A stretch of 60,291 bases of DNA from a virus (IMGVR_UViG_3300035682_000039:1-60291), one strand, 5' to 3'. Numbered from the stretch's first letter, positions 11,595-49,687 are shown. The notes: generated from the letters alone by a model not told the origin. A program made the numbers and translations.

Positions 11595-12887
11595 TTAAGC
11601 CCTTTTCTTGAATAGGTGAACATTAGACTCGGGCATTGAAAAGCCCTTAGATTTGAGAAAAGCTCTGAGAAATTTCGTATCCTTTTTATTCTCATTAGCA
11701 CAAATAAACTTCAGGAAATAATCGACTGTCAAATTCTTGGTGCTGGCTTCCCGACAAAAGAACCATGTCGCATAGGTGAACTCTAAACACGCCATGATCG
11801 TATCGTATTTAAGTGAACCCTTAAATAATCTGAATTCGACTGTCCGGTCATTCTGAAAATTAAGAGCTTCATAACGATCCCGATTTAATCTCCGAAGCTG
11901 GGAACGCTTCCCGTTTACTTCAAGAGACTCTTTTAACCACCCTTTATCATCTTTTTTATTCTTAATTGACCCATAAGAACTATCTCTCCGAGCAATCGCT
12001 TTAATGAGTGATTGATTCGCCTGATCGTTAATGAAGAGGATCATTTTCGCACCATGCAAAGTAGTCATTTCTGATTTGCAGATATGCACATGAAGCCCAC
12101 AGGTATTGGTATCGTGAGACTTTGCACCCTTCAATGGTTTATAGAGATCATCTTTAAAAAACGATAATTGCTCCTGATGCACATCCAAACCCGTATATGC
12201 AGTAACCATTTCGAAACCATGATCCAGACTTGCGTCACCCTCACAAAGGGCATATGTCTCACCCTTATACTCTCCAAGCCCGTTTAAGAGCTTCTTAGCC
12301 GTTTCTGTGCGATCGCTTTCGACTTCTATTTCCAGCTCCAGCCCTAACAAGACTCTGGGCTTACGATCATCATACGCAGATGCAATATGACCCAGACGAT
12401 GCTTAGAGGAATGATACTCACCGATAATGCTATTCGAGGTTAAATCCTCTTCCCGAACATAAGTATCCTGATCTTCATCCCATTCGTAATTGTCTTCACG
12501 GCATGATTCACACACCAAATAATCATGATAGCAACGGGAAGAATTATCTCTATGCTCGATTACATTGCAGTCATTACAACGGAAAAGCTCGTTTTGGGCA
12601 TCTGGGAATTTCTCTTCTATGAAATCAATCCAATCACTCTGGAAACGCACCGAGTCATTAGCCAATTCAAGGATATGCGAAATACTTTGATCCCTGATAG
12701 CTATACCGACAGAAGCTCCAAAACGATTAAAAGAATTTCGCTGATTTTGGATATTATCCAATCTCACATGATCCCAGCGACTCGATCTCCGACCCGTTAA
12801 ATGGGTTTTAATTTCCCTCTTAATAATTTCCCTTCTGTAATCCCTTCTATGGCTGGAATAATCATTCCACAATCTTAAAATATTCAT
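11595..12887 (-). CDS. COOH-NH2 ligase (amidoligase) with zinc-binding insert
   Basis: The 430-residue protein shows the glutamine-synthetase-like amidoligase signature. GLELEIE at 182-188 and the acidic CEGDASLDHGFEMVT at 216-229 are present. CGLHVHI at 263-269 and RTVEFRLF at 348-355 supply the likely ATP/metal-binding Glu, His and Arg residues. A Cys cluster (C104, C107, C119, C126, C129) forms a probable zinc ribbon. The family joins a carboxylate to an amine using ATP, modifying peptides or small molecules. With the adjoining amidotransferase it forms a two-gene unit with its own terminator. The target could be a host or phage protein, cell-wall peptide or metabolite; the sequence does not say which. 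Confidence 0.8.
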   Translation of the reverse strand: MNILRLWNDYSSHRRDYRREIIKREIKTHLTGRRSSRWDHVRLDNIQNQRNSFNRFGASVGIAIRDQSISHILELANDSVRFQSDWIDFIEEKFPDAQNELFRCNDCNVIEHRDNSSRCYHDYLVCESCREDNYEWDEDQDTYVREEDLTSNSIIGEYHSSKHRLGHIASAYDDRKPRVLLGLELEIEVESDRTETAKKLLNGLGEYKGETYALCEGDASLDHGFEMVTAYTGLDVHQEQLSFFKDDLYKPLKGAKSHDTNTCGLHVHICKSEMTTLHGAKMILFINDQANQSLIKAIARRDSSYGSIKNKKDDKGWLKESLEVNGKRSQLRRLNRDRYEALNFQNDRTVEFRLFKGSLKYDTIMACLEFTYATWFFCREASTKNLTVDYFLKFICANENKKDTKFLRAFLKSKGFSMPESNVHLFKKRA

Positions 12888-29047: not shown

Positions 29048-32000
29048 CTACTTAGACTTACGGATGTCTTCCATCTGTTTGGCAATGTCCGACATTAGGA
29101 TCTTGATACGGTTCATCTCAGCCCGTTTGTCATCGGTATTAATGTCTTTACTATTCTCAATAATACGGCTTTGTTTGCGTAACTCAGCCAACTGTTTGGT
29201 AGCTTTGTCATAGACTTTGGACAGGGCAATCTTGTCACCCTTCTCTTCCATAATCTTGGTGACTTTCTCCATATCTCCCAGCTCGGCATAGTGACGCATA
29301 TCCGCCAAAGCAGACTGTAGCCTGGCGTTATTCTCATAAAACTGAGTCATATACTTAGATTGGGTCTCTGGCTCGGTTTTAATAAATCCCATAGCCAAGG
29401 TATCAATCACAGGCTTACGAACCCGTGTACCCTCTCTAAATGGCTCTACGGCTAGATCTGCGGTGGACGCTGCGGTAGCACCCATCCATCCTAAATAGGA
29501 CTTGATAAAGTAATCCATCTGGACTGGAGAAATACCCTGTGCGTCTGGGTTAAATGTCAAAACTTTTGCGGCTCCTTCGGATACACCGCCCAGTGTTTGA
29601 GCTATAACACTAGTCCTATTGGTCATACGCTCTTGCTTAGACAGTCTTTCCATACCAGCAGATTCAATCGGCGCCCCTGTGAAGCTGTCCTTATTTGCAT
29701 AGATGTCAATCAAAGGCTTAATCATCTGTGGCATTGGGTTTAAAGAGAAGGTGTCCATGAGGATGTGATTTAAGCGTTCTGCAAAGACCTTACCTTCTAC
29801 GCCCTCGTCAGCCAACTGTTCGTAGGTTCTCTCGGCAATCGTCCCCAAAGCACCAATCTCAAATGGCTTAGGAATACGGAATGCCACATCACCAATCTTG
29901 AACCACCAGAAGTTATCCCGATCCCAACCTTCCCGTCTTTGGAAGTCTTCATCGTCCTTGTAGATTCCATAGAGGAGAACCGATGCCAGCATGATGGCAC
30001 TGGACATGGTCATAAAGCGTTGGGCTTTTTGCTTATCAGACAGGCTTGTTTCTTTGCCAGTCGTGGCGTTATAGATTAAACGATAGGTTGGTGTGATACC
30101 GTCTCTTCCAAGTTTATAAAGACCTTGTAAACGGGCGTTAAAGAAGGGAACTAACGAAGCAATGACTTTGACAGTACGGAACTGCCCTTGCATCGAGAAG
30201 TCCATTAAGTCTCTGGCTGCAAAGGATGCTTCAAGATGGGACTTACCGCTGTCCCGTAATTTTCTATATAGAGCTAGACGGTTGGCGTTCTCAAACTTAT
30301 TACCTAATTCGTTATAGTTATTTAATAAGTCTTGGAACATCCCTTTAATTTTTTCAGGGCTATCAAGAATGGTTGTTTCTTTAATGCCCTTGTCGATTAA
30401 TCGCTTAATCATCTTAGCCTGGTCGCCTTCGTGAGCTGTACCCATCTCAAAGATACCGCCACCAGCCAACGCTGCCATAAAAGTTGGATCGCCCTTTTTA
30501 GACATCCGTAAGCCGTTATATACGTTCTCAATCATATTCGGGCCTAACTCTGATACTGCGGCAGAGGACATCGAATCACGGATTAAGTTGCGGATCTTAT
30601 AGGCTGGGGATAGGGTGACACCATACCGTAAGGCATTTGTAAACCCTTTGGCAATATCCAAGAACGCACTCTTAGGACCTAGATAGGAAATTGTAGAGAT
30701 AGCGTCTACTAGATCTGGATCGGATAAGGCGTAGTGAACGGTCTTACCATTCTCCATAAACTTAATAGTATTGGGAGGGTACTTGCCATCCATAGGCTTA
30801 ACCTTCTCCGCGGCTCCCATAGATTCCGCATCGTTAATGGTTTGATTGGTTGCCTGATTTTTCATCGAAGCAGACAGGATGTGAGACCAATTCAAAAGCA
30901 CATTCTCCATGAGGTCGTTGACCTTCTTCTCCCCGCCTTTTAAAGCCTTGGAGAAGTACTGGCCTGTTAATTTAGAGGATGCGTTAACGGCATCTACACT
31001 ACCGTCTTCCATTTGTTTATAGAATGGGATGTAGTAAATGTCGTTAGAGAAAACCTGATAGGCAGCGTTATCAATTAAACCTGTCTCTCTTGCAATATCC
31101 AAGACCGACTTGTTTAATTGATTTTCTTCCTGTAAGGCTTTGTCATAGAGTTCTTTACGGGATTTACCATTTAACTTGCCTTGGGATAATTTATCCCGCA
31201 ACTGAATGGTAGCGTCATCAAATGACCGTTTATCAGGAGGCATCCGTGCATCACGATTCAGAGCTTTCCACATTTGATATTGGTCTACCTCAGTGCCTAA
31301 TGGCTCTAGGATTGCCAGCAAGCCTTTTGTATTGGGACGAATATCTAACGCTCCGTCCTTCAAGTAAACCTGACCATGCTCTAAAAGTCCCTGTAAACCG
31401 CCATCGATGGACTTCGATAAACGAGCCATCATATAGCCTTCGGTTGAGTACTTTTTGATTGCTCGGAACTCGTCAAAGACACCCGTAATAAACCGCTCAA
31501 AGAAGTTATCTTTTAGATTCTCAAACTTCTGTCCTACGGTAGCCTCTTCTTGAACAAACTGTTTACGCAGTAAGTTCTTTTCATCTTCAGTCAGCCCTTC
31601 AAAGGTACCCTTCATTTCTTTTTGAAATAAAGTTCCTTGACCAGATGCGCCCTTTTTGCCCGTTGGTTTCTGACCAAAGCTATATCCTCTAGATATAATC
31701 CGATCGCCAATCATATCAATATCTTCGCTAAGAACAGACTCAGAAGTTCTGATCAAACGATCTAAGGCAGATTCGTAGTCCTTGTTGATGCCAAGAATCT
31801 CTCTAATTAACTGTACTAATTTGGTAAATGCGGTCTTCTCGCCAACTTTAATCTCGCTCAAGAAGGTTTGCATATCCTTATCGGTTAATCCCCAAGAAAC
31901 TAACTCATCAATGTTGCGTAATGCGTTAATTTCTTTGTTATATATCCGTTGCATAAACGGAGTAAGTTCCTTCTTTGCAATTTTTTCGTTGTAGTATTTG

Positions 32001-34984
32001 ACAACCTGATTGCGTAAATCGTTTAATTCAACCACCAATTTATCGTTCTTAGACTCCGTGAATAGTTGACCGCTGGTGGCAACGTGCAACAACTCATGCA
32101 AAATAGTTGTATAGTTCATGCCAGATGGATAGCCAAATTGATTGTCTAATATGGCTGCACCATTGAGATTTAACTCTATATTGGCTAATATGTTGGCAGA
32201 ATAATCAAAGTTTACAGAACCTTTAGCTTCCATCATTTTGACTGGTCTTTTACTACCAGAATGAATAACAAAGCTCAACTTAATGCCACGGGCTTCGATC
32301 TCTTTGATCCGCTTGTTTACCATTTTGGCAATTACTTTAGCAAACTTATTAGGTGCGTTCTTGACAGACCAGTCAGATACCTCGGTAATTGTTTTGCCAG
32401 TTAATTCTTTTTCAAGAAGTTGATCTTCTTTGGAAATCTTAGATGGTTTGCCGCCTTCCCGAGACTCTAAAGTTCCTTTTCCTTCAGCGTCTCCCTTAAA
32501 CTCTTCTGCAATAGCCTCCTCTGGAGCGCCTTTTAGCTTGTTCTCTAGGTATTCAATGTTGTTTTGAATGGACTCCAAATCCCTTATGACACGAATGTTT
32601 TGGGGCGTTGGCACGAATCCACCATCAACCGATGTGCGGATTAGTTCTCTAAAGTCACTAACACCACCGTCTACGCTATTTAGATCTACATCGGCTGCCG
32701 TTAGGATGTTTTGCTCAATAGCAATCCTTAATAAATCATCAAGGAACATACCGCCCTTGCGGAATAGACGATTGGGAATCCGTTTATCAATACCAATATC
32801 AGCCCTCTCGGACGGATCAATTCCAAAGCCCATCATCCATTTCTTAAATTCATCTGGCTCTTTTTCAAGTTTTTCTTTGCGTTTATACAGCTCTAGTATT
32901 TCTACTTGATCGGGATTTGGATTAACAAGAACATTTTCGGTTAACTCCCTTTCGCCATCCTTGTACTTGGCAAAACGTTTTTTGCCCTTTTGAACAATGG
33001 TTCCGTATTTAGTCTGGATGTTTCCCTCTGGATCAATGAACACAAACTGTTCTTGACCTTCCGCCTTACCTTCTATTTCTAGGGGAGGATTGAGGATGTC
33101 ATAGATATATTGAGGGGTAAGGAACTCAGTACGATTTAGATAAGTGTCAATATTGTCTTTAACTATCTGGCTCTTTGATTGATCCTTAAATGCCATCAAC
33201 TTAGCACGGACTCGATCGGCATTCTCAGGGACGGATAAGTCGGCATTAAGTACTTCTGGATCTTGATAGATTGTAGCGACTGGGTTAATGCCTAAGCCTT
33301 TTAAGACTTCTGACGAAACAATATTATTAAACGCAGACAGGGCGGCTTTATCTACATCTTTAGACTGTATAAACTTGTCATATTCATCGTAAATCTTCTT
33401 GATCTCTGGGCGGTCTTTAAAGCCTTTAATCATGCGGTCACGAAGAGCCTTAGCATCTGCCTCTGGAGTGGTCGTAGCCTCGGTAATCTGGGTAGGCGTT
33501 TCCGATACAGGCAGAGGTTGGAACTCGGGCCTTGTTAGGTAGTCTTCAATATTCTTACGAATCGTAGGATTGGCTTTTGGATACCTTTTAAGGTAGTCCT
33601 GAAGAGCTTCTTTAACCTTAGCTGCTTCTTGTGGGTTAGCAATATCTGCACCCAAAATATCTTGGTTTTTATACAGATTAGCCTTGGGAGAGATACCAAA
33701 AGACCTAATGCGGTCGGCATCAAAAGTACGATCTTTAATCTGCTCTGGGCTGGCAATCCCATACTTCTCTCTAAAGCCCTCCTCAGACAGTTCTGAGGTA
33801 GCGGTAGGGGCAAACTGAGTACGCTCGCTAGGAAAGATCGTAGTGCCGTCAGGATTGACAATAATCGGGGTATAAACTCCGCTACCCTCTACGGTGGGGT
33901 CATAACCAATTGCTAGATTTACTTGTTGTGGTTGAAGGGTTTCGGCTGCCTTACGTTTGGCTTCTTCCAGTTGGGCTTTGGCTCTCTCTAACTCAACCGC
34001 ATTCGCTTTATTTAAAAAACTGGCAGGTAGACCAAATAAAGCACCACCAACAGCTCCAAGACCAGCGGCTGCACCTACTCCCTTAAGGACATCTGTTTCG
34101 GGTGCTACACCCTGTAATTGAACATTTGAGATTAATTGACCGCCACCCTCTTCTACGGCTTCGCTGAGGGTCTCGCCCAAGGTTCCACGGATAATCCCTG
34201 TCTTGGGGACTCCAGCCATGCCACGAGTTAAAGCTTTTTCAATGGTAGAGCCAGCTCCAAAAGATGTGCCAACTGTAAGGGCTGCGGCTTGAACGGCTGC
34301 CATACGACCACGAGATAAAGCCTCTCTCATGGCGGTTTGATCATCAACGCCCTGACTAATTAATTCGTTATAAACATTCTCATAGGTTGCTGTACCAATG
34401 TCTGCGCCTTGCATGGTAGCGCCTGTACCAATCGCACCACGAACACCCGCTTTGGCAAAGACATCATCGGTAGCGTTTTTCATGGCTACTTTGACTACGC
34501 CACGAGTCAATAAGCCACCGCCCATTGTTCCAATTAGGTTGGGAATTTGTTCAAAAATAAAGGAGCTAAGTAAAGCTGGATCTTTAAGAGTCTGCCCAAT
34601 AGCAGTACCAGCCTCATCTAAAAGACCTTCTGCTTGGGAAATCTTTTGACTTCTTAGAGTTTCTTTAGCTCTTAATGCAGGCGACTTGGCTTCTTCGGAA
34701 AATGCTTCAAGCCGTTTACCAACTCCTTGAAGTCCCGTGGTTTCATCTGGACGTCCTGTGATAAGACCAGAAACTTGCCCCGGAATCTGAAGCAATGAGC
34801 CAATTCCTTTACCAATTGGAGCTACAACATCGGTAGCCATTTCACCAATGGTTCTGCTTTGTTTGGCTAATATCTCAGGAAATTGGGGGAGAATATCTCG
34901 CTCAATGGCATTTTTAATTTCTTCAGGCGCCATTGTGTCAGGGAAACTAACCTGACCGACCCCTTCGACATTGACAATCGGCAT
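29048..34984 (-). CDS. Giant internal/ejection-type protein with metallopeptidase motif and LPD38 region
   Basis: The 1,978-residue protein starts MPIVNVEGVGQVSFPDTM, a beginning shared by other giant phage internal proteins. It has Ala/Gly-rich hydrophobic helices at about 130-330. A zinc peptidase motif HELLH sits at residues 963-967, in a TTILHELLHVATS context. Toward the C-terminus, SAIMLASVLLYGIYKDDE and IPKPFEIGALGTIAERTYEQ match the large polyvalent protein-associated domain 38 as I remember it. The family is packaged in virions and injected with DNA. The protease could act on host proteins or peptidoglycan, or be needed for processing (inference). Confidence 0.8.
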   Translation of the reverse strand: MPIVNVEGVGQVSFPDTMAPEEIKNAIERDILPQFPEILAKQSRTIGEMATDVVAPIGKGIGSLLQIPGQVSGLITGRPDETTGLQGVGKRLEAFSEEAKSPALRAKETLRSQKISQAEGLLDEAGTAIGQTLKDPALLSSFIFEQIPNLIGTMGGGLLTRGVVKVAMKNATDDVFAKAGVRGAIGTGATMQGADIGTATYENVYNELISQGVDDQTAMREALSRGRMAAVQAAALTVGTSFGAGSTIEKALTRGMAGVPKTGIIRGTLGETLSEAVEEGGGQLISNVQLQGVAPETDVLKGVGAAAGLGAVGGALFGLPASFLNKANAVELERAKAQLEEAKRKAAETLQPQQVNLAIGYDPTVEGSGVYTPIIVNPDGTTIFPSERTQFAPTATSELSEEGFREKYGIASPEQIKDRTFDADRIRSFGISPKANLYKNQDILGADIANPQEAAKVKEALQDYLKRYPKANPTIRKNIEDYLTRPEFQPLPVSETPTQITEATTTPEADAKALRDRMIKGFKDRPEIKKIYDEYDKFIQSKDVDKAALSAFNNIVSSEVLKGLGINPVATIYQDPEVLNADLSVPENADRVRAKLMAFKDQSKSQIVKDNIDTYLNRTEFLTPQYIYDILNPPLEIEGKAEGQEQFVFIDPEGNIQTKYGTIVQKGKKRFAKYKDGERELTENVLVNPNPDQVEILELYKRKEKLEKEPDEFKKWMMGFGIDPSERADIGIDKRIPNRLFRKGGMFLDDLLRIAIEQNILTAADVDLNSVDGGVSDFRELIRTSVDGGFVPTPQNIRVIRDLESIQNNIEYLENKLKGAPEEAIAEEFKGDAEGKGTLESREGGKPSKISKEDQLLEKELTGKTITEVSDWSVKNAPNKFAKVIAKMVNKRIKEIEARGIKLSFVIHSGSKRPVKMMEAKGSVNFDYSANILANIELNLNGAAILDNQFGYPSGMNYTTILHELLHVATSGQLFTESKNDKLVVELNDLRNQVVKYYNEKIAKKELTPFMQRIYNKEINALRNIDELVSWGLTDKDMQTFLSEIKVGEKTAFTKLVQLIREILGINKDYESALDRLIRTSESVLSEDIDMIGDRIISRGYSFGQKPTGKKGASGQGTLFQKEMKGTFEGLTEDEKNLLRKQFVQEEATVGQKFENLKDNFFERFITGVFDEFRAIKKYSTEGYMMARLSKSIDGGLQGLLEHGQVYLKDGALDIRPNTKGLLAILEPLGTEVDQYQMWKALNRDARMPPDKRSFDDATIQLRDKLSQGKLNGKSRKELYDKALQEENQLNKSVLDIARETGLIDNAAYQVFSNDIYYIPFYKQMEDGSVDAVNASSKLTGQYFSKALKGGEKKVNDLMENVLLNWSHILSASMKNQATNQTINDAESMGAAEKVKPMDGKYPPNTIKFMENGKTVHYALSDPDLVDAISTISYLGPKSAFLDIAKGFTNALRYGVTLSPAYKIRNLIRDSMSSAAVSELGPNMIENVYNGLRMSKKGDPTFMAALAGGGIFEMGTAHEGDQAKMIKRLIDKGIKETTILDSPEKIKGMFQDLLNNYNELGNKFENANRLALYRKLRDSGKSHLEASFAARDLMDFSMQGQFRTVKVIASLVPFFNARLQGLYKLGRDGITPTYRLIYNATTGKETSLSDKQKAQRFMTMSSAIMLASVLLYGIYKDDEDFQRREGWDRDNFWWFKIGDVAFRIPKPFEIGALGTIAERTYEQLADEGVEGKVFAERLNHILMDTFSLNPMPQMIKPLIDIYANKDSFTGAPIESAGMERLSKQERMTNRTSVIAQTLGGVSEGAAKVLTFNPDAQGISPVQMDYFIKSYLGWMGATAASTADLAVEPFREGTRVRKPVIDTLAMGFIKTEPETQSKYMTQFYENNARLQSALADMRHYAELGDMEKVTKIMEEKGDKIALSKVYDKATKQLAELRKQSRIIENSKDINTDDKRAEMNRIKILMSDIAKQMEDIRKSK

Positions 34985-43427: not shown

Positions 43428-43640
43428 TTAAAACACCTCTCCGCCAGCGGCAGGAACAGACGTAGCATGGATAGAAATATGCTGTCTTAGGTTTAAAGGC
43501 GCACCGCAGTCTGAACAGGTATCTGCCTCTAGCTCGGCTTTATCTAAGTCGTATCCACAGGCTGCACAAATAACCTCTACCTCATGGGCTGGTTCAATTA
43601 GCCCGCCCTCTAAGTTTCTAGCCTCTACAAACTGTTTCAT
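43428..43640 (-). CDS. Zinc-ribbon protein, 70 aa
   Basis: CAAC and CSDC pairs near residues 25 and 42, in a CAACGYDLDKAELEADTCSD context, form a rubredoxin-like zinc knuckle. It overlaps the start of the next gene by 4 bp. The role is unknown; it might be a small accessory factor of the neighbouring kinase/nucleotidyltransferase. Confidence 0.65.
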   Translation of the reverse strand: MKQFVEARNLEGGLIEPAHEVEVICAACGYDLDKAELEADTCSDCGAPLNLRQHISIHATSVPAAGGEVF

Positions 43641-44464
43641 GTCAGCCCCATTTCTTTGCGGATCTTGGTTGCGGATATATCGGTTATGGTTTTATCAAAA
43701 GTTTCTTGCTCAATCTTGTAGCCTACATCTCTGCCGTAGGTGATGTTTGTAATGTTAGGCACTACTTGAATCTCATACTGCCCTTGGAATAGGGGGTCTA
43801 AATCCCGCTTAATATTGTTCTTAACTTGCTCGATGGCAAATGGGTTAGAACCTTGCCAGCCCTGGCAATCACGAATCTGAATAACTACTTGACCCGTCTT
43901 GGCAATAGCTCTTTCAAACAAAGCTCTATGTCCTTCATGCCAAGGTTGCCATCTACCAAGCATCTGTACGGTTTCAGATTGCCAGTTAAAGACTGGACGT
44001 CTGCGGTTTTCAATAATGTGGTTGCCGATAAACTCAGCCCACTTCTCGCAGTTCTGCTCGGTGACACGGAAGTCATAAACTGTTGGTGGGATAAAGGCTT
44101 TGTTAGTATCCTCATACCGACCAGCATCTATGGTGTCCATCCAGACAGTCCAGTCGGCTTTAAAGTTATTACGCATCTCAACCAACGGTGCTACAAAGTC
44201 GCAGATAACATAATCACCGCCAGCTTCTAGGGCAAACTGAGCCATGCGTAAAGATTGACGGATTCTACCTTCGTTGGAAAAATCCCAGTCGTTGTACTTC
44301 TTACGAACCTCATCAGCGTTAAACCAATTAACCTGTGCATTAAAGCTAGTAAAGACTTCGCCATAATCTTTGCGAGTACCGTTTGATTCTAAATACTTCT
44401 TTAGAGCTTGGGCTAAATAAGTCTTACCTGAACCTGGCAAACCCATGATTAGTATCTTTTTCAT
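43637..44464 (-). CDS. APS-kinase-like domain fused to nucleotidyltransferase domain
   Basis: Residues 1-150 are a P-loop kinase with GLPGSGKT at 8-15, FNADEVRKKYNDWDFSNEGR at about 48-67, DFVAPL at 89-94 and WTVWMDTI, a pattern closest to CysC adenylylsulfate kinases. Residues 160-275 form a cytidylyltransferase-like domain with GRWQPWHEGH (HxGH at 176-179) and ISATKIRKEM at 263-272. CysC makes PAPS, the sulfate donor for sulfotransferases, and a sulfotransferase is encoded two genes away. The second domain may activate a sugar, polyol or nicotinamide compound. Domain calls are firm; substrates are not. Confidence 0.82.
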   Translation of the reverse strand: MKKILIMGLPGSGKTYLAQALKKYLESNGTRKDYGEVFTSFNAQVNWFNADEVRKKYNDWDFSNEGRIRQSLRMAQFALEAGGDYVICDFVAPLVEMRNNFKADWTVWMDTIDAGRYEDTNKAFIPPTVYDFRVTEQNCEKWAEFIGNHIIENRRRPVFNWQSETVQMLGRWQPWHEGHRALFERAIAKTGQVVIQIRDCQGWQGSNPFAIEQVKNNIKRDLDPLFQGQYEIQVVPNITNITYGRDVGYKIEQETFDKTITDISATKIRKEMGLT

Positions 44465-45160
44465 TTATCTCTCTAAGTTATCGTTTCTAATGGTGCTTCG
44501 GTCTGTTCCTGCTCTGTTTAATATCGTGGTATTTTCACGACTGCCTTCGTCATAAGCGTATACGCCCATCTGGTGCATTGGAAATATGTCTGCTCGTAAC
44601 ATACAGTCTAACGAACTATTAATACCGTACTTCAATACATGAGCAAGCATATTCTTTGCTACCGCTGGGTCTATGGAGTAAGCGTGCGCTCTGCACATAA
44701 AATGATAATTTGTCCCCATCGAACCATGTGGCGGTGTTGGTAACACCTGCCAGTTTTGCTTTACTTGCTCATTACAGCCTAAGTACGAAATAGAGTTATA
44801 CACAGTATGTTCACGATAAGGTGCAACCATAATAGCGTCATGCTCCAAAACAACCAACGGTACATCATCTTCTACACATTTTGCCCACAAACTAATGTGG
44901 GATAAAGCACAAGCCACTTCTGACCTAGTTAAAAAATGGTCGGCAATCTTTACCATTCTCATAAAAGGATTTAAGTTCTCTGGTGGATTAATACCATCCT
45001 TTGTTCCGTCAAACGCATCCCAATATTGGTACCTCATTCCAACTTTATCGCATGAATCTGCACATCGTTTAGCTAATGACTCTGATAGCTCGTGTCCTTT
45101 TAGTCTAATAATGTAAGCACCGCTAACCTTTACATCATAAGAAAAAAATAAGGACTTCAA
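44465..45160 (-). CDS. Glycosyltransferase family 25-like
   Basis: The N-terminal region has GAYIIRLKGHELSESLAKRC and a YQYWDAFDGTKDG motif. ACALSHISLWAKCVEDDVPL leads to VVLEHDAIM, where LEHDA corresponds to the LEDDA signature of GT25 galactosyltransferases (one Asp to His change). The 231-residue length matches the family. GT25 enzymes extend lipooligosaccharide or modify collagen-like proteins. In this operon it may modify virion proteins or the host surface together with the sulfotransferase. Confidence 0.78.
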   Translation of the reverse strand: MKSLFFSYDVKVSGAYIIRLKGHELSESLAKRCADSCDKVGMRYQYWDAFDGTKDGINPPENLNPFMRMVKIADHFLTRSEVACALSHISLWAKCVEDDVPLVVLEHDAIMVAPYREHTVYNSISYLGCNEQVKQNWQVLPTPPHGSMGTNYHFMCRAHAYSIDPAVAKNMLAHVLKYGINSSLDCMLRADIFPMHQMGVYAYDEGSRENTTILNRAGTDRSTIRNDNLER

Positions 45161-45540
45161 ATTAAAGCGTCAAGTTCGTCATGCGTAGTACAGGCATCAA
45201 TAGCAGCTTGTCTTGGTGCAACAGCATCTTTAGCAGCTTGCAGGGCTACAGGGTCATACGTAGATGGGTCGGCTGCTTGTTGTCTAAATAGCATATTAAA
45301 TGCCATTGCAGCATTTTGTTTCATGCCTTCTTTGCGGTCAGCCACAGATATATCTGCAACGCCATAAACTATTTCTACAGGGTCTTTGGTCAAATCAAAG
45401 GTATGTCCTGTGTAGTATTGACGATGTGGGGTAATGGCAGGTCTTACCTCAATAGCAGTTTTCCAGCCAGGTCTGCTATCAGGTGGGGTATCCCAAACAT
45501 CTTTAACTTCACCATTTTCAATGCGAATATTTAAACTCAT
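45157..45540 (-). CDS. Tail-fibre-assembly-like protein, 127 aa
   Basis: The N-terminus NIRIENGEVKDVWDTPPDSR is the kind of beta-turn start often found in phage fibre-associated proteins. A helical C-terminus carries VALQAAKDAVAPRQAAIDAC followed by THDELDALI. It overlaps both neighbours by 4 bp. A chaperone or attachment role is likely from context; no named family could be confirmed. Confidence 0.6.
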   Translation of the reverse strand: MSLNIRIENGEVKDVWDTPPDSRPGWKTAIEVRPAITPHRQYYTGHTFDLTKDPVEIVYGVADISVADRKEGMKQNAAMAFNMLFRQQAADPSTYDPVALQAAKDAVAPRQAAIDACTTHDELDALI

Positions 45541-47243
45541 TTGATTCTCCTAATATTTTGGTTAAACTCACCAGTCACTTTAGCTAATGGGGTATCCCAA
45601 TCGCCAAATTTCTCTTGCCTAAACAGTCTGACATTACGATACCAGATGCTTGTGTCCTTGCCATCAGCCCATAAATAATACGGGAGTATAGGGCTAATAA
45701 TCCAAGTTTCTTTACCCATTGCTGCTGCTAAATGTGCAACTGAGGTGCAAGAACTAATAACCTTGTCCACACTTTCAATAACCGCCTTGGTATGTAACCA
45801 AGTATCTAAGCAAGGTTTTTGCACATGGTCAGGGATGTTATCTATACCTACATCCCGTTGCAGACTGACTAACTCTGCTGGTATTGTAAACAATGGTGTT
45901 GGGTCAAATACTCTATTATGCTCATGCTCAAAGCGTGGGTTACCTTGCCACCGCAATCCAATCTTGCCATTAGGTTTAATCGTCTTACAAGGGATATAAG
46001 GTGCGTTATTGACTGTTAAGAAACTGAGATATCCTGACATTCCTAGTACATGGTAGTCATGGTACACACCGCCAGCAGCCCTTGATTCAACTACCGCAGA
46101 CACGCCATCAACCAACATCATTAAGCCAGCCAACTCAGGCATACAGGCAACCACACAGACACCACCACGACTGACAATTTCTCTAGCCCATCTAGCGGAG
46201 TGTATTTCGTCACCTCGACCACCTTCTAGTACCAATAAAACAACCTCTCCATTTAAAGGTCTGCCATCGTATCTTGGCATTGACGAGGGGTTTGGGTTAC
46301 CAAATATTTCTTCGTTACGACCTCTATCAAGCAATTCAAAACCTTCTTTTAAGTTGCCATGTCTTAGTGCGTACCAGCCACGATTAAAGGCTGCTCGGTC
46401 ATCATGTGGTCTTGTTTCTAAAAGAATTCTGCACATTGATTCAGCAGCCTCAAACTCACCACGCATGGCAGCTTCTACTTGGAAGTCTAGTATGTCTTTC
46501 TTAGGCTCTGTTTCGCCTTTCCAAAACTTAGGTGCGTGGAATCGATACTCAAACTCGCCTAAGACTTCTTTGGCGGATGTGCCTGTGTTCTTTAGTTCAG
46601 GCTTAATGTCGTGTAGTCCAACAATACCCCAAGCGTTCTCGTCATCCTCTGCGACTGAATTGCCGTCAATATTATTAAAGTCGTGAGCAAAAGGCTGTAG
46701 ATTCCAAAAGGCTTCTATCTTAGAAATGACCGCCTGTGGGTCTGACATTAACTCATCATATTCAACAAACAAAATGTTTTCAGGATGCTCGGTATAGCCT
46801 TGGTGTAGGGTAGCGTAAGAACCTTTTAGGTGTCCTATTAGGTGTCCATTACAGAACTCAGCAAAATTTGCAGGTTTAGCAATCTTGGCAAAAGATGCTG
46901 CACAAGTAGCCACATCCCTAACAGTCGCTACAATTCGCATTGGTGATCCTAAGACTTCACCCATTGTTTTTTGAATCTGCGGTGCTACCCAACCCCTAGA
47001 CTTGTCAACAGTAATCTTGCCGTCATCCCGCACAGGAATTAACTTCCTAAGTGTTTCGTAAAGATGCTCGTTAGTCTGCCTTTGACCTTTGGTTGATGGG
47101 TTGTTTTCCCATGTTTGAACTACAGCACCAAATATATCAATAAGTCCTGAAGTTGGAGTTACATGGATGTCGTTTCTCTGATTTAGCAACGCAGCTAAAA
47201 CAGTGGATCCTGAACGGGGTAGTCCTGATAGAAAGTACATCAT
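45537..47243 (-). CDS. Sulfotransferase-TPR-glycosyltransferase fusion
   Basis: From ATG 47243 the protein has 568 residues. Residues 1-230 are a PAPS-dependent sulfotransferase, with the 5'-phosphosulfate loop SGLPRSGST at 6-14 and the 3'-phosphate site VATVRDVATCAASF at 105-118. Residues 255-315 look like one or two TPR repeats. Residues 330-560 resemble the GT domain of TPR-type glycosyltransferases, with VLEGGRGDEIHSARWAREI and CTSVAHLAAAMGKETWIISP. The start overlaps the RCC1 gene's stop (ATGA), so the enzyme may modify that protein. Fusion of sulfate transfer and sugar transfer in one chain is unusual. Confidence 0.82.
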   Translation of the reverse strand: MMYFLSGLPRSGSTVLAALLNQRNDIHVTPTSGLIDIFGAVVQTWENNPSTKGQRQTNEHLYETLRKLIPVRDDGKITVDKSRGWVAPQIQKTMGEVLGSPMRIVATVRDVATCAASFAKIAKPANFAEFCNGHLIGHLKGSYATLHQGYTEHPENILFVEYDELMSDPQAVISKIEAFWNLQPFAHDFNNIDGNSVAEDDENAWGIVGLHDIKPELKNTGTSAKEVLGEFEYRFHAPKFWKGETEPKKDILDFQVEAAMRGEFEAAESMCRILLETRPHDDRAAFNRGWYALRHGNLKEGFELLDRGRNEEIFGNPNPSSMPRYDGRPLNGEVVLLVLEGGRGDEIHSARWAREIVSRGGVCVVACMPELAGLMMLVDGVSAVVESRAAGGVYHDYHVLGMSGYLSFLTVNNAPYIPCKTIKPNGKIGLRWQGNPRFEHEHNRVFDPTPLFTIPAELVSLQRDVGIDNIPDHVQKPCLDTWLHTKAVIESVDKVISSCTSVAHLAAAMGKETWIISPILPYYLWADGKDTSIWYRNVRLFRQEKFGDWDTPLAKVTGEFNQNIRRIK

Positions 47244-49687
47244 GGTGTTTGTATACAACCAGATGTATTTGCACCTGCTGCTGGTACAACCCAAGTAGTT
47301 AAAGCACCGACTTGAACAGGGGAAGAACGATTAGCAATATCGCCTAAGCCTAAGTCACCACGACCGTTATAACCCCAGCCCCACAGTGTTCCATCTGTTT
47401 TAAGGCATACAGCCATATTACTACCTGCTTTTGGAGTAGACCAATTAGTTAATGCACCAATTTGTTTAGGTGAAGAATAATAAGTAGTATTACCTGTGCC
47501 TGATTGACCATAAGCATTAGCTCCCCAAGACCAAAGTGTTCCATCAGTTTTAGAACACAAAGCAAAAGCTTGACCGCCATCAGGTTTAGACCAATCAGTT
47601 AATGTTCCCACCTGAACTGGTGAAGAACGAGCAACTGTATTATTTTGTCCTAATTGTCCAGCACCATTGTATCCCCAAGCCCACAATGTTCCGTCAGTTT
47701 TAGTACACATTGAAAAATTACCATTTGCTGCTGGTATTTTCCAATTTGTTAACGCCCCAACTTGAACTGGTGATGAACGATTAGCAGTATCGTTTAGACC
47801 TAATCTTCCAGAACCATTGTATCCCCAAGCCCACAATGTTCCGTCTGTTTTAGCACACAAAGCAAAACCAACACCAGAACTTATTGTAGCCCAATCAGTT
47901 AACGCACCAACTTGAACTGGGGAAGAAAGATCAGTTGTATTGTTTTGCCCTAATTGACCAGAACTATTTTTACCCCAACTCCATAAAGTTCCGTCTGTTT
48001 TAGTACAAAAAGAAATATTATTGTTGTTAGATTCTGGTGTTTTCCAATTTGTTAAAGCACCAACCTGAACAGGAGATGAACGGCTTCCAAGAGCATTTAA
48101 TCCTAATTGACCATCATAATTAGAACCCCAAGCCCACAGCTCTCCAGTAGTTTTAACTGCAAGTGTACAATTGCCTGTTGTTACTTTTTTCCAAGTAGTT
48201 AATGCTCCAACTTGTGTAGGAGAAGAACGCCTAGCTGCAGTTCCATCGCCTATCTGTCCTGTATCATTGTTTCCAACAATAAACAACTTACCACTAGGAA
48301 GAGCTGTTACTGTAGCTGTATTAGCAGAGTTAGCTGGTGTTGATCCAATACCATTTGTAGCTGTTACTACGCAACGGAGCGTAGATCCGACATCGGCTGC
48401 TTGAATTGTATAAGTGCTAGATGTCGCACCGACAATATCGCTAGTACCTCGTTGCCATTGATAAGCAAAACTAGATGGGAATTGACCCCATGTACCTGTA
48501 GTAGAAGATAGTGTTTGATCTTCTTGTGCTGTTCCTGAAACAACTGGGACTGTTAGGTTTACTGGGGCGGCGGTTCCTACTCCTTGTATACAACCAACTG
48601 TTTGTACGCCTGCTGCTGGTACAGCCCAACTCGTCAGAGAACCAACTTGGACAGGTGAAGAACGGTTAGCGGTATTGCCTATTCCTAAATGACCAGCACT
48701 ATTATTACCCCAAGTCCATATTGTTCCGTCTGTTTTAGTACAAGCACTATTTGTATTTCCAGCCTGCGGGGTTACCCAATTAGTTAATGATCCAACTTGT
48801 ACTGGAGAAGAACGATTATATACGTTCCCTATTCCTAAATTACCAAAACCACCATAACCCCATGACCATAATGTTCCATCTGTTTTAGCACATAAAGAAA
48901 ATCCACCTCCAGATGTTGGAGTTTTCCAATTGGTTAATGCGCCAACTTGGACAGGTGAAGAACGAGATACAGTATCACCAGTTCCTAATTGACCACTAGA
49001 ATTTAGACCCCATGCCCATAATGTGCCATCGGTTTTAATACATAAAGACAGACTGCCACCAACGGATGGTGTAGCCCAAGTAGTCAGAGAACCAACTTGG
49101 ACAGGTGAAGAACGATTGGCGGTGTCACCTAATCCTAATACACCATTAGTATTTCTACCCCATGCAAAAAGTTTGCCATTGTCAACAGCTAAAGCATTAT
49201 AAGCATTTGCTGCTGATACTGCAGTCCATGTTGTTGATGATCCAATTTGAACTGGGGAAGAACGATTAGCAGTATCGCCTAATCCAATTTGACCAAATTG
49301 ATTTCTACCCCATGACCATAAAGTTCCATCTGTTTTAATACAAAAAGATATATTATCGCCACCAACAACAGGTGTTTTCCAGTCTGTCAAAGCACCTACT
49401 TGAACAGGAGATGAACGAGCAATTGTATTATTGTGTCCTAATCCACCATAATTAGCAAAACCCCATGTCCATAAAGTTCCGTCTGATTGAGTTGCAATCG
49501 TGTGGTTACCTGTTGATAATTTTGTCCAAGTAGTCAAAGCTCCTACTTGAACTGGTGAAGAACGATATATTACGTTTCCTGTGCCTAATGCACCAGCAAA
49601 ATTATCAGCCCACATAAACAACTTACCGCTAATAATAGCGGGACCACCAGCACTTTTAGCAAATAAGAAATTACGAGAACCGAACAT
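47240..49687 (-). CDS. RCC1-repeat protein: two seven-bladed propellers joined by an Ig-like domain
   Basis: The 815-residue protein contains 14 copies of a repeat of about 50 residues of the form TDGTLWSWG-GQLGLGDTA-RSSPVQVG-LTTW, seven before and seven after a central domain (TLSSTTGTWGQFPSSFAYQW then STYTIQAADVGSTLRCVVTA) that resembles bacterial Ig-like modules. Each set ends in a similar PAAG-x3-xGCIQ segment. RCC1 repeats form seven-bladed propellers, so two complete propellers are predicted. In phages such proteins are probably tail-tip or fibre parts binding host surfaces (inference). Confidence 0.88.
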   Translation of the reverse strand: MFGSRNFLFAKSAGGPAIISGKLFMWADNFAGALGTGNVIYRSSPVQVGALTTWTKLSTGNHTIATQSDGTLWTWGFANYGGLGHNNTIARSSPVQVGALTDWKTPVVGGDNISFCIKTDGTLWSWGRNQFGQIGLGDTANRSSPVQIGSSTTWTAVSAANAYNALAVDNGKLFAWGRNTNGVLGLGDTANRSSPVQVGSLTTWATPSVGGSLSLCIKTDGTLWAWGLNSSGQLGTGDTVSRSSPVQVGALTNWKTPTSGGGFSLCAKTDGTLWSWGYGGFGNLGIGNVYNRSSPVQVGSLTNWVTPQAGNTNSACTKTDGTIWTWGNNSAGHLGIGNTANRSSPVQVGSLTSWAVPAAGVQTVGCIQGVGTAAPVNLTVPVVSGTAQEDQTLSSTTGTWGQFPSSFAYQWQRGTSDIVGATSSTYTIQAADVGSTLRCVVTATNGIGSTPANSANTATVTALPSGKLFIVGNNDTGQIGDGTAARRSSPTQVGALTTWKKVTTGNCTLAVKTTGELWAWGSNYDGQLGLNALGSRSSPVQVGALTNWKTPESNNNNISFCTKTDGTLWSWGKNSSGQLGQNNTTDLSSPVQVGALTDWATISSGVGFALCAKTDGTLWAWGYNGSGRLGLNDTANRSSPVQVGALTNWKIPAANGNFSMCTKTDGTLWAWGYNGAGQLGQNNTVARSSPVQVGTLTDWSKPDGGQAFALCSKTDGTLWSWGANAYGQSGTGNTTYYSSPKQIGALTNWSTPKAGSNMAVCLKTDGTLWGWGYNGRGDLGLGDIANRSSPVQVGALTTWVVPAAGANTSGCIQTP

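Follow-up and report, generated by a model that had tools for sequence, protein, structure and literature searches.

The animal enzymes PAPSS1 and PAPSS2 and the bacterial Sat-CysC fusions join in one chain an adenosine 5'-phosphosulfate (APS) kinase and a nucleotidyltransferase of the HxGH superfamily. A protein of comparable architecture, P0001, is encoded in a stretch of viral DNA of 60,291 bases (IMG/VR contig IMGVR_UViG_3300035682_000039, the whole of which is called the window). Its APS-kinase-like domain comes first, as in the animal 3'-phosphoadenosine 5'-phosphosulfate (PAPS) synthases. P0001 is unlike PAPSS1/2 and Sat-CysC in its length of 275 aa, in a nucleotidyltransferase half without a PUA domain or a sequence match to the catalytic domain of the ATP sulfurylase Sat, and in a kinase that is missing the lid segment. 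The operon is read here as a phage sulfation-plus-glycosylation cluster, with a probability of roughly 0.7, in which P0001 would make PAPS and a sulfotransferase-glycosyltransferase fusion, P0004, would use it.

Known counterparts exist for several parts of this scheme. In Allochromatium vinosum, sat is co-transcribed with aprMBA; the operon and its Sat have been characterised, and the enzyme, being reversible, can work either way (PMC3779200). A survey of SAR116 bacteria reported aprABM together with sat (PMC8547437), and in the Pelagibacteraceae aprAB belongs to the core genes, but the pathways for sulfate have been called incomplete (PMC12636525). Bacterial and cyanophage sulfotransferases of the Sulfotransfer_3 family (TPST fold) share the PAPS motifs and the fold of P0004, and annotated sulfotransferases are known from the cyanophages S-SKS1 and S-SRM01. 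P0004 is unlike these in its fusion to tetratricopeptide repeat (TPR) and GT9/OGT-like domains and in its operon linkage to a probable PAPS-making enzyme. Mycobacteriophage virion proteins carry glycans (Freeman 2023, as cited in PMC12619734), and the passage on this virion glycosylation makes no mention of sulfation or PAPS synthesis. The open-licence literature yielded no prior description of a phage PAPS synthase, of this nucleotidyltransferase family or of a replacement SAR11 sulfurylase, nor, sought likewise, of the DUF2061 proteins discussed below.

A candidate PAPS-making protein and its probable sulfotransferase partner

P0001 and P0004 comprise the following features.

43637..44464, minus strand: P0001, 275 aa, APS-kinase-like plus HxGH nucleotidyltransferase, proposed compact PAPS synthase (Pfam, profile against the PDB, AlphaFold2, Foldseek)
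44015..44464, minus strand: APS-kinase-like domain, about aa 1-150 of P0001 (alignment of 31 sequences; 2yvu at 4.9e-16 and PAPSS1)
44420-44443, minus strand: P-loop GLPGSGKT, aa 8-15 of P0001 (alignment)
43640..44002, minus strand: nucleotidyltransferase domain, about aa 155-275 of P0001, proposed compact ATP sulfurylase (alignments; 59% identity to a SAR116 stand-alone nucleotidyltransferase)
43928-43939, minus strand: HxGH within GRWQPWHEGH (alignment; further motifs YGRDVGY and ISATxxR)
45537..47243, minus strand: P0004, 568 aa, sulfotransferase-TPR-GT9/OGT-like fusion (Pfam, AlphaFold2, Foldseek)
46509..47243, minus strand: sulfotransferase domain, about aa 1-245 of P0004 (Sulfotransfer_3 at 6.7e-14; motifs; TPST2 with 3'-phosphoadenosine 5'-phosphate (PAP) at 2.6e-7)
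47202-47225, minus strand: 5'-phosphosulfate-binding motif (5'-PSB) GLPRSGST (alignment of the sulfotransferase half)
46893-46919, minus strand: 3'-phosphate-binding motif (3'-PB) R109...S117 (alignment of the sulfotransferase half)
46299-46493, minus strand: TPR linker, about aa 251-315 of P0004 (weak TPR by Pfam)
45540..46256, minus strand: GT9/OGT-like domain, about aa 330-568 of P0004 (Foldseek; separate gene beside the sulfotransferase in relatives)

The N-terminus of P0001 matches the Pfam family APS_kinase (2e-7, aa 4-103). A profile of 31 homologues, compared with the PDB, matches APS kinases in its kinase half above other solved kinases (2yvu at 4.9e-16, and about twenty others). For the AlphaFold2 model of P0001, with a predicted local distance difference test (pLDDT) score of 87, Foldseek places APS kinases or PAPSS at ranks 1-9, human PAPSS1 being rank 1. 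Profile and structure therefore both rank APS kinases above kinases of other kinds, in agreement with the CysC-type assignment of an earlier sequence-only reading of this DNA. Residues D51, R54, F62 and R67 are invariant in the 31 sequences, and we take them to be the equivalents of the APS-binding or catalytic residues D63, R66, F75 and R80 (Penicillium numbering). The place of the CysC lid is taken in the alignment by a shorter stretch, for example GRYEDTNKAF. The domain is thus predicted to be APS-kinase-like from sequence and model, and it is set apart from standard CysC because the CysC lid segment is missing.

The nucleotidyltransferase half, overlooked as a key part by the sequence-only reading, is probably an ATP sulfurylase and the most novel piece of the module. 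Its motifs HxGH, GR[D/G] and ISATxxR can be compared with the Sat motifs HxxH, GRD and SGTxxR (PMC3779200), but the QxRN motif is absent. Like Sat (PF01747/PF14306) of sat-aprMBA, the family has HxGH, GR[D/G] and IS[A/G]TxxR and occupies the slot before aprM in SAR116. It spans about 125 aa, in contrast to about 390 aa in Sat. Neither P0001 nor a SAR116 stand-alone homologue gave a match to the Sat family (PF01747) in Pfam, nor did the nucleotidyltransferase part of the 31-homologue profile against the PDB, and by sequence the domain is placed outside the Sat family.

The sulfotransferase half of P0004 retains the 5'-PSB and the Arg and Ser of the 3'-PB, eight residues apart, throughout an alignment of 27 sequences; loss of these PAPS-binding residues would have argued against the proposed transfer activity. 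In the AlphaFold model of P0004 (pLDDT 88), the first half resembles tyrosylprotein sulfotransferase 2 with PAP (2.6e-7) and 3-O-sulfotransferases by Foldseek. The second half, for which no Pfam family was found, resembles GT-B folds of the heptosyltransferase/OGT type (WaaC 8e-5, TibC 1.6e-4, bacterial OGT 2.7e-4). One common pathway for the two halves is suggested because they adjoin as separate genes in other phages (L038, L040, L055-L057, L060-L063, L070).

In the proposed mechanism, whose catalysis and step order we infer from domains, homology, motifs and gene adjacency, the nucleotidyltransferase domain of P0001 would convert ATP and sulfate to APS and pyrophosphate, and its kinase domain would convert APS to PAPS. 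The sulfotransferase half of P0004 would then use PAPS to sulfate an acceptor, to which the C-terminal half of P0004 and a GT25-family protein of the same operon would add sugars.

Genomic contexts of the nucleotidyltransferase and kinase

Among 121 SAR116 genomes, nine encode AprB. In the seven apr loci without the nucleotidyltransferase (7/7), sat lies directly upstream of aprM, and in the other two the nucleotidyltransferase is found there. It is a stand-alone gene of 129 aa before aprM-aprB-aprA (L284:4906-5295, L285:7388-7777), 59% identical to the phage domain. Loci L277 and L284 are flanked by the same genes in the same order to either side, and their AprA proteins are 97% identical; they differ in that L277 has sat and L284 the nucleotidyltransferase. 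Pfam identifies Sat in L277 and L282, with APS_kinase downstream. A canonical cysC also lies downstream of the nucleotidyltransferase-aprMBA genes (L284:9734-10339, L285:2344-2949), where the nucleotidyltransferase coexists with an ordinary APS kinase. SAR116 locus L233 has a stand-alone nucleotidyltransferase directly before aprM. At L272:3596-3976 a further stand-alone gene likewise stands in for sat ahead of aprMBA.

In SAR11, the kinase-nucleotidyltransferase gene stands in line with aprM-aprB-aprA at two loci (L186/L187). Across 197 Pelagibacterales genomes, the nucleotidyltransferase is present in 151, AprB in 152 and Sat in 10; 138 have both of the first two (Fisher 8e-16, uncorrected for ancestry and completeness; shared ancestry and incomplete genomes inflate the co-occurrence). 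The nucleotidyltransferase lies 1.1-2.7 kb from aprB in 41 SAR11 genomes, in same-strand, convergent and fused arrangements. Its genomic position and co-occurrence fit an ATP sulfurylase. The domain replaces sat in SAR116 apr operons and keeps company with AprB in SAR11, so its most likely identity is that of a compact ATP sulfurylase, which would make the phage protein a PAPS synthase of 275 aa; the stand-alone form may be the missing SAR11 sulfurylase. With somewhat better than even confidence, the family can be proposed as a third, hitherto undescribed kind of ATP sulfurylase with a length of about 125 aa, which displaced sat in SAR116, supplies the step in SAR11 and, fused to the kinase, was spread by phages as a PAPS synthase for the sulfation of virion or host-surface glycoconjugates.

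Bacterial homologues of the kinase-nucleotidyltransferase occur in SAR11, SAR86, SAR116, Bradyrhizobium and others, and kinase and nucleotidyltransferase are separate adjacent genes in SAR86 and many SAR11. Two TPR-sulfotransferase genes directly precede the pair in three Bradyrhizobium (positions taken from genome searches, as longest-frame calling of open reading frames mispredicts in GC-rich loci), one sulfotransferase gene precedes it in Chelatococcus, and one is immediately upstream in two SAR86 genomes. Among 33 genomes searched in all, some of them incomplete single-cell genomes and one a SAR86 chromosome labelled complete (L247), CysD was not found in the SAR11 and SAR86 genomes carrying the family; one of these has Sat (G048) and one a canonical CysC of full length (G084). 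Sulfotransferases are encoded in 10 of 10 SAR86 genomes.

At least 589 viral stretches encode a protein of the P0001 type, and operons homologous to that of the window recur in dozens of contigs. Of the 16 kinase-bearing viral records with a clear sulfotransferase, 15 have it no more than 5 kb from the kinase, where random placement expects 6.6 (0 of 20,000 simulations); most of these records are of the same lineage as the window, and the simulated probability treats them as more independent than they are. Left out of the distance test were the sulfotransferase-like genes of L112 and L153 and the first of L111, which Pfam does not recognise, and the second of L111, which is below the cut-off. 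Distant phages have one or two sulfotransferase-like genes just ahead of the kinase gene, the junctions being overlaps or gaps of 1 nt, in the order sulfotransferase-sulfotransferase-kinase (L111, L113, L117, L120, L123) or with the sulfotransferase overlapping the kinase (L177, L164). The link between donor synthesis and transfer that the sequence-only reading drew is thus upheld: the kinase groups with APS kinases, the sulfotransferase keeps its PAPS motifs, and the two adjoin in unrelated phages and in bacteria. Glycosyltransferase genes are also frequent neighbours in phages. In several phage lineages, genes for small DUF2061 membrane proteins follow the kinase-nucleotidyltransferase gene (L145:6755-7000, L151:6870-7073), and a role for these proteins in sulfate or PAPS handling is possible.

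One phage gene, L063:7037-7999, appears by eye to encode an oxygenase-like N-terminal region ahead of an APS-kinase-like domain whose P-loop is degenerate (GSSRSS), and has no Pfam match. It overlaps a sulfotransferase gene, and an intact kinase-nucleotidyltransferase gene then follows.

Alternative readings and possible acceptors

Several observations weigh against P0001 as a PAPS synthase. The Foldseek TM-scores are moderate. In the kinase, the equivalent of N83 is Gln in P0001 and mostly not Asn in the family, FISP has become FVAP, and the C-terminal lid segment of CysC (KGLYKKAR...) is absent, with Pfam matches that end at about position 94 of 152 in almost every homologue. The nucleotidyltransferase carries GRxQP where Sat has QxRNP, the latter motif being absent as is PUA, and its nearest solved relatives are not Sat enzymes; they are NadM-type nicotinamide mononucleotide (NMN) adenylyltransferases (2qjt at 1.7e-10), in line with a match to PRK01153 at 3.7e-6. 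In SAR116, the absence of sat from the two genomes bearing the nucleotidyltransferase holds for the apr locus, where it was seen; in SAR11 the co-occurrence is inflated as stated above. Among viruses, many kinase-bearing contigs, most of them fragments, are without a recognised sulfotransferase. Casjensviridae infecting Stenotrophomonas, Xanthomonas and Clavibacter have a kinase-nucleotidyltransferase gene that overlaps a NADAR gene (L100:5559-6735, L102/L104 from 3559), and no convincing sulfotransferase was found in Casjensviridae.

The NadM relationship and the NADAR pairing speak for P0001 as a NadR-like enzyme of NAD salvage, a kinase plus NMN adenylyltransferase restoring NAD during infection, with the sulfotransferase neighbours incidental. 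This is improbable. The NadM alignment covers only about residues 4-85 (GRxQPxHxGH and the NPF region) and ends after the first half, leaving the NMN-binding, acceptor half unaligned. The contexts of the family are those of APS and sulfation: in apr operons it stands where sat would be, in SAR11 it co-occurs with AprB, and the kinase, which recurs beside sulfotransferases, matches APS kinases and not nicotinamide-riboside kinase. NAD salvage was rejected as the leading interpretation on the strength of the APS-kinase-like kinase and the replacement of sat. The GT9 heptosyltransferases take their sugar from ADP-heptose, and a kinase joined to an HxGH adenylyltransferase resembles HldE. The kinase alone could then serve sulfation, with the nucleotidyltransferase providing the GT9-like domain with a sugar activated as its ADP or CDP derivative, and glycosyltransferase genes do often adjoin. 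However, the kinase is not an HldE-type sugar kinase, the nucleotidyltransferase is present in most SAR11 genomes, and the stand-alone form replaces sat before aprMBA without sugar genes nearby, for which reason sugar-nucleotide synthesis was set aside as very improbable. There is also a small chance that the nucleotidyltransferase acts on APS in another way, as an APS:phosphate adenylyltransferase or an APS hydrolase that removes APS, the phage kinase using APS made by the host. Co-occurrence with APS reductase shows only that APS is the common metabolite; apr contexts consume APS and sulfotransferase contexts need it. However, Sat works in both directions (PMC3779200), the one-for-one exchange with sat in the same operon favours the same reaction, and fusion to an APS kinase needs an activity that forms APS.

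The question of the acceptor draws on the remaining genes of the operon.

44465..45160, minus strand: P0002, GT25-family glycosyltransferase, TTG start (Glyco_transf_25 at 2.5e-15, above cut-off)
45157..45540, minus strand: P0003, 127-aa protein, conserved in related operons (homologues 29-93% identical in related loci)
47240..49687, minus strand: P0005, RCC1-repeat protein, 14 repeats, candidate acceptor (Pfam; near the sulfotransferase or kinase in most related loci)
43428..43640, minus strand: zinc-ribbon-like protein, 70 aa (weak zinc-ribbon matches)

Scans with Pfam, PHROGs and NCBIfam found all of the domains named by the sequence-only reading in overlapping minus-strand genes (47243-43637); its list of the operon was accurate for the genes it gave, but the 127-aa gene (45157-45540), for which none of the three collections returned a family, and the zinc-ribbon gene went unmentioned. 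The junctions RCC1/sulfotransferase, sulfotransferase/127-aa gene and kinase/zinc-ribbon gene read ATGA, as had been noted for the first of these, the 127-aa gene/GT25 junction reads TTGA, and the gap between GT25 and kinase is 0 nt. A Hoc-like segment (about aa 380-466) splits the RCC1 repeats of P0005 (47240-49687) into two blocks.

The GT9/OGT-like domain fused to the sulfotransferase, together with the GT25 protein, would add sugars, which makes a glycan or glycoprotein the probable acceptor. A single sulfated glycan on one target, the RCC1 protein or the host surface, had been proposed; the sulfotransferase-glycosyltransferase link is real, fused here and adjacent elsewhere, but the single glycan and its target are conjectural. 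Being the usual neighbour and translationally coupled, RCC1 makes a tail-region protein the leading guess, and the host surface ranks second. It is a tentative possibility, and somewhat less than an even one, that the module acts as described but on a host surface polysaccharide and not on a virion protein, for superinfection exclusion or receptor masking. GT25 is a lipopolysaccharide-type family, and SAR11 relatives (L191, L194, L195) sit among polysaccharide-type genes. Against this stand the late tail/lysis location, the coupling to RCC1, a sulfotransferase fold closest to the protein-tyrosine sulfotransferases and a glycosyltransferase half near TibC and OGT, which glycosylate proteins, although the acceptor cannot be read from fold matches.

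Implications and further observations

If the PAPS synthase reading is correct, phages carry a full line of sulfate activation and transfer that is tied to genes of the tail region and points to sulfated virions or surfaces. Phage-borne sulfate activation would be useful in a host without CysDN, as in SAR11. The nucleotidyltransferase would also fill a recognised gap in SAR11, the ocean's most abundant bacteria, an issue larger than the phage of the window, and a small new ATP sulfurylase would redraw sulfite oxidation and energy recovery in these most abundant marine heterotrophs. It would further help to correct automatic labels such as 'cysC' or 'NMN adenylyltransferase'.

The window carries portal, lytic tail/internal-virion, virion structural and endolysin genes, and the operon lies in a podovirus-like tail/lysis region. 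Next to the lytic tail/internal virion protein gene, 29048-34984 encodes a protein of 1978 aa that matches only PHROG families of unknown function. An amidoligase-like protein is encoded at 11595-12887.

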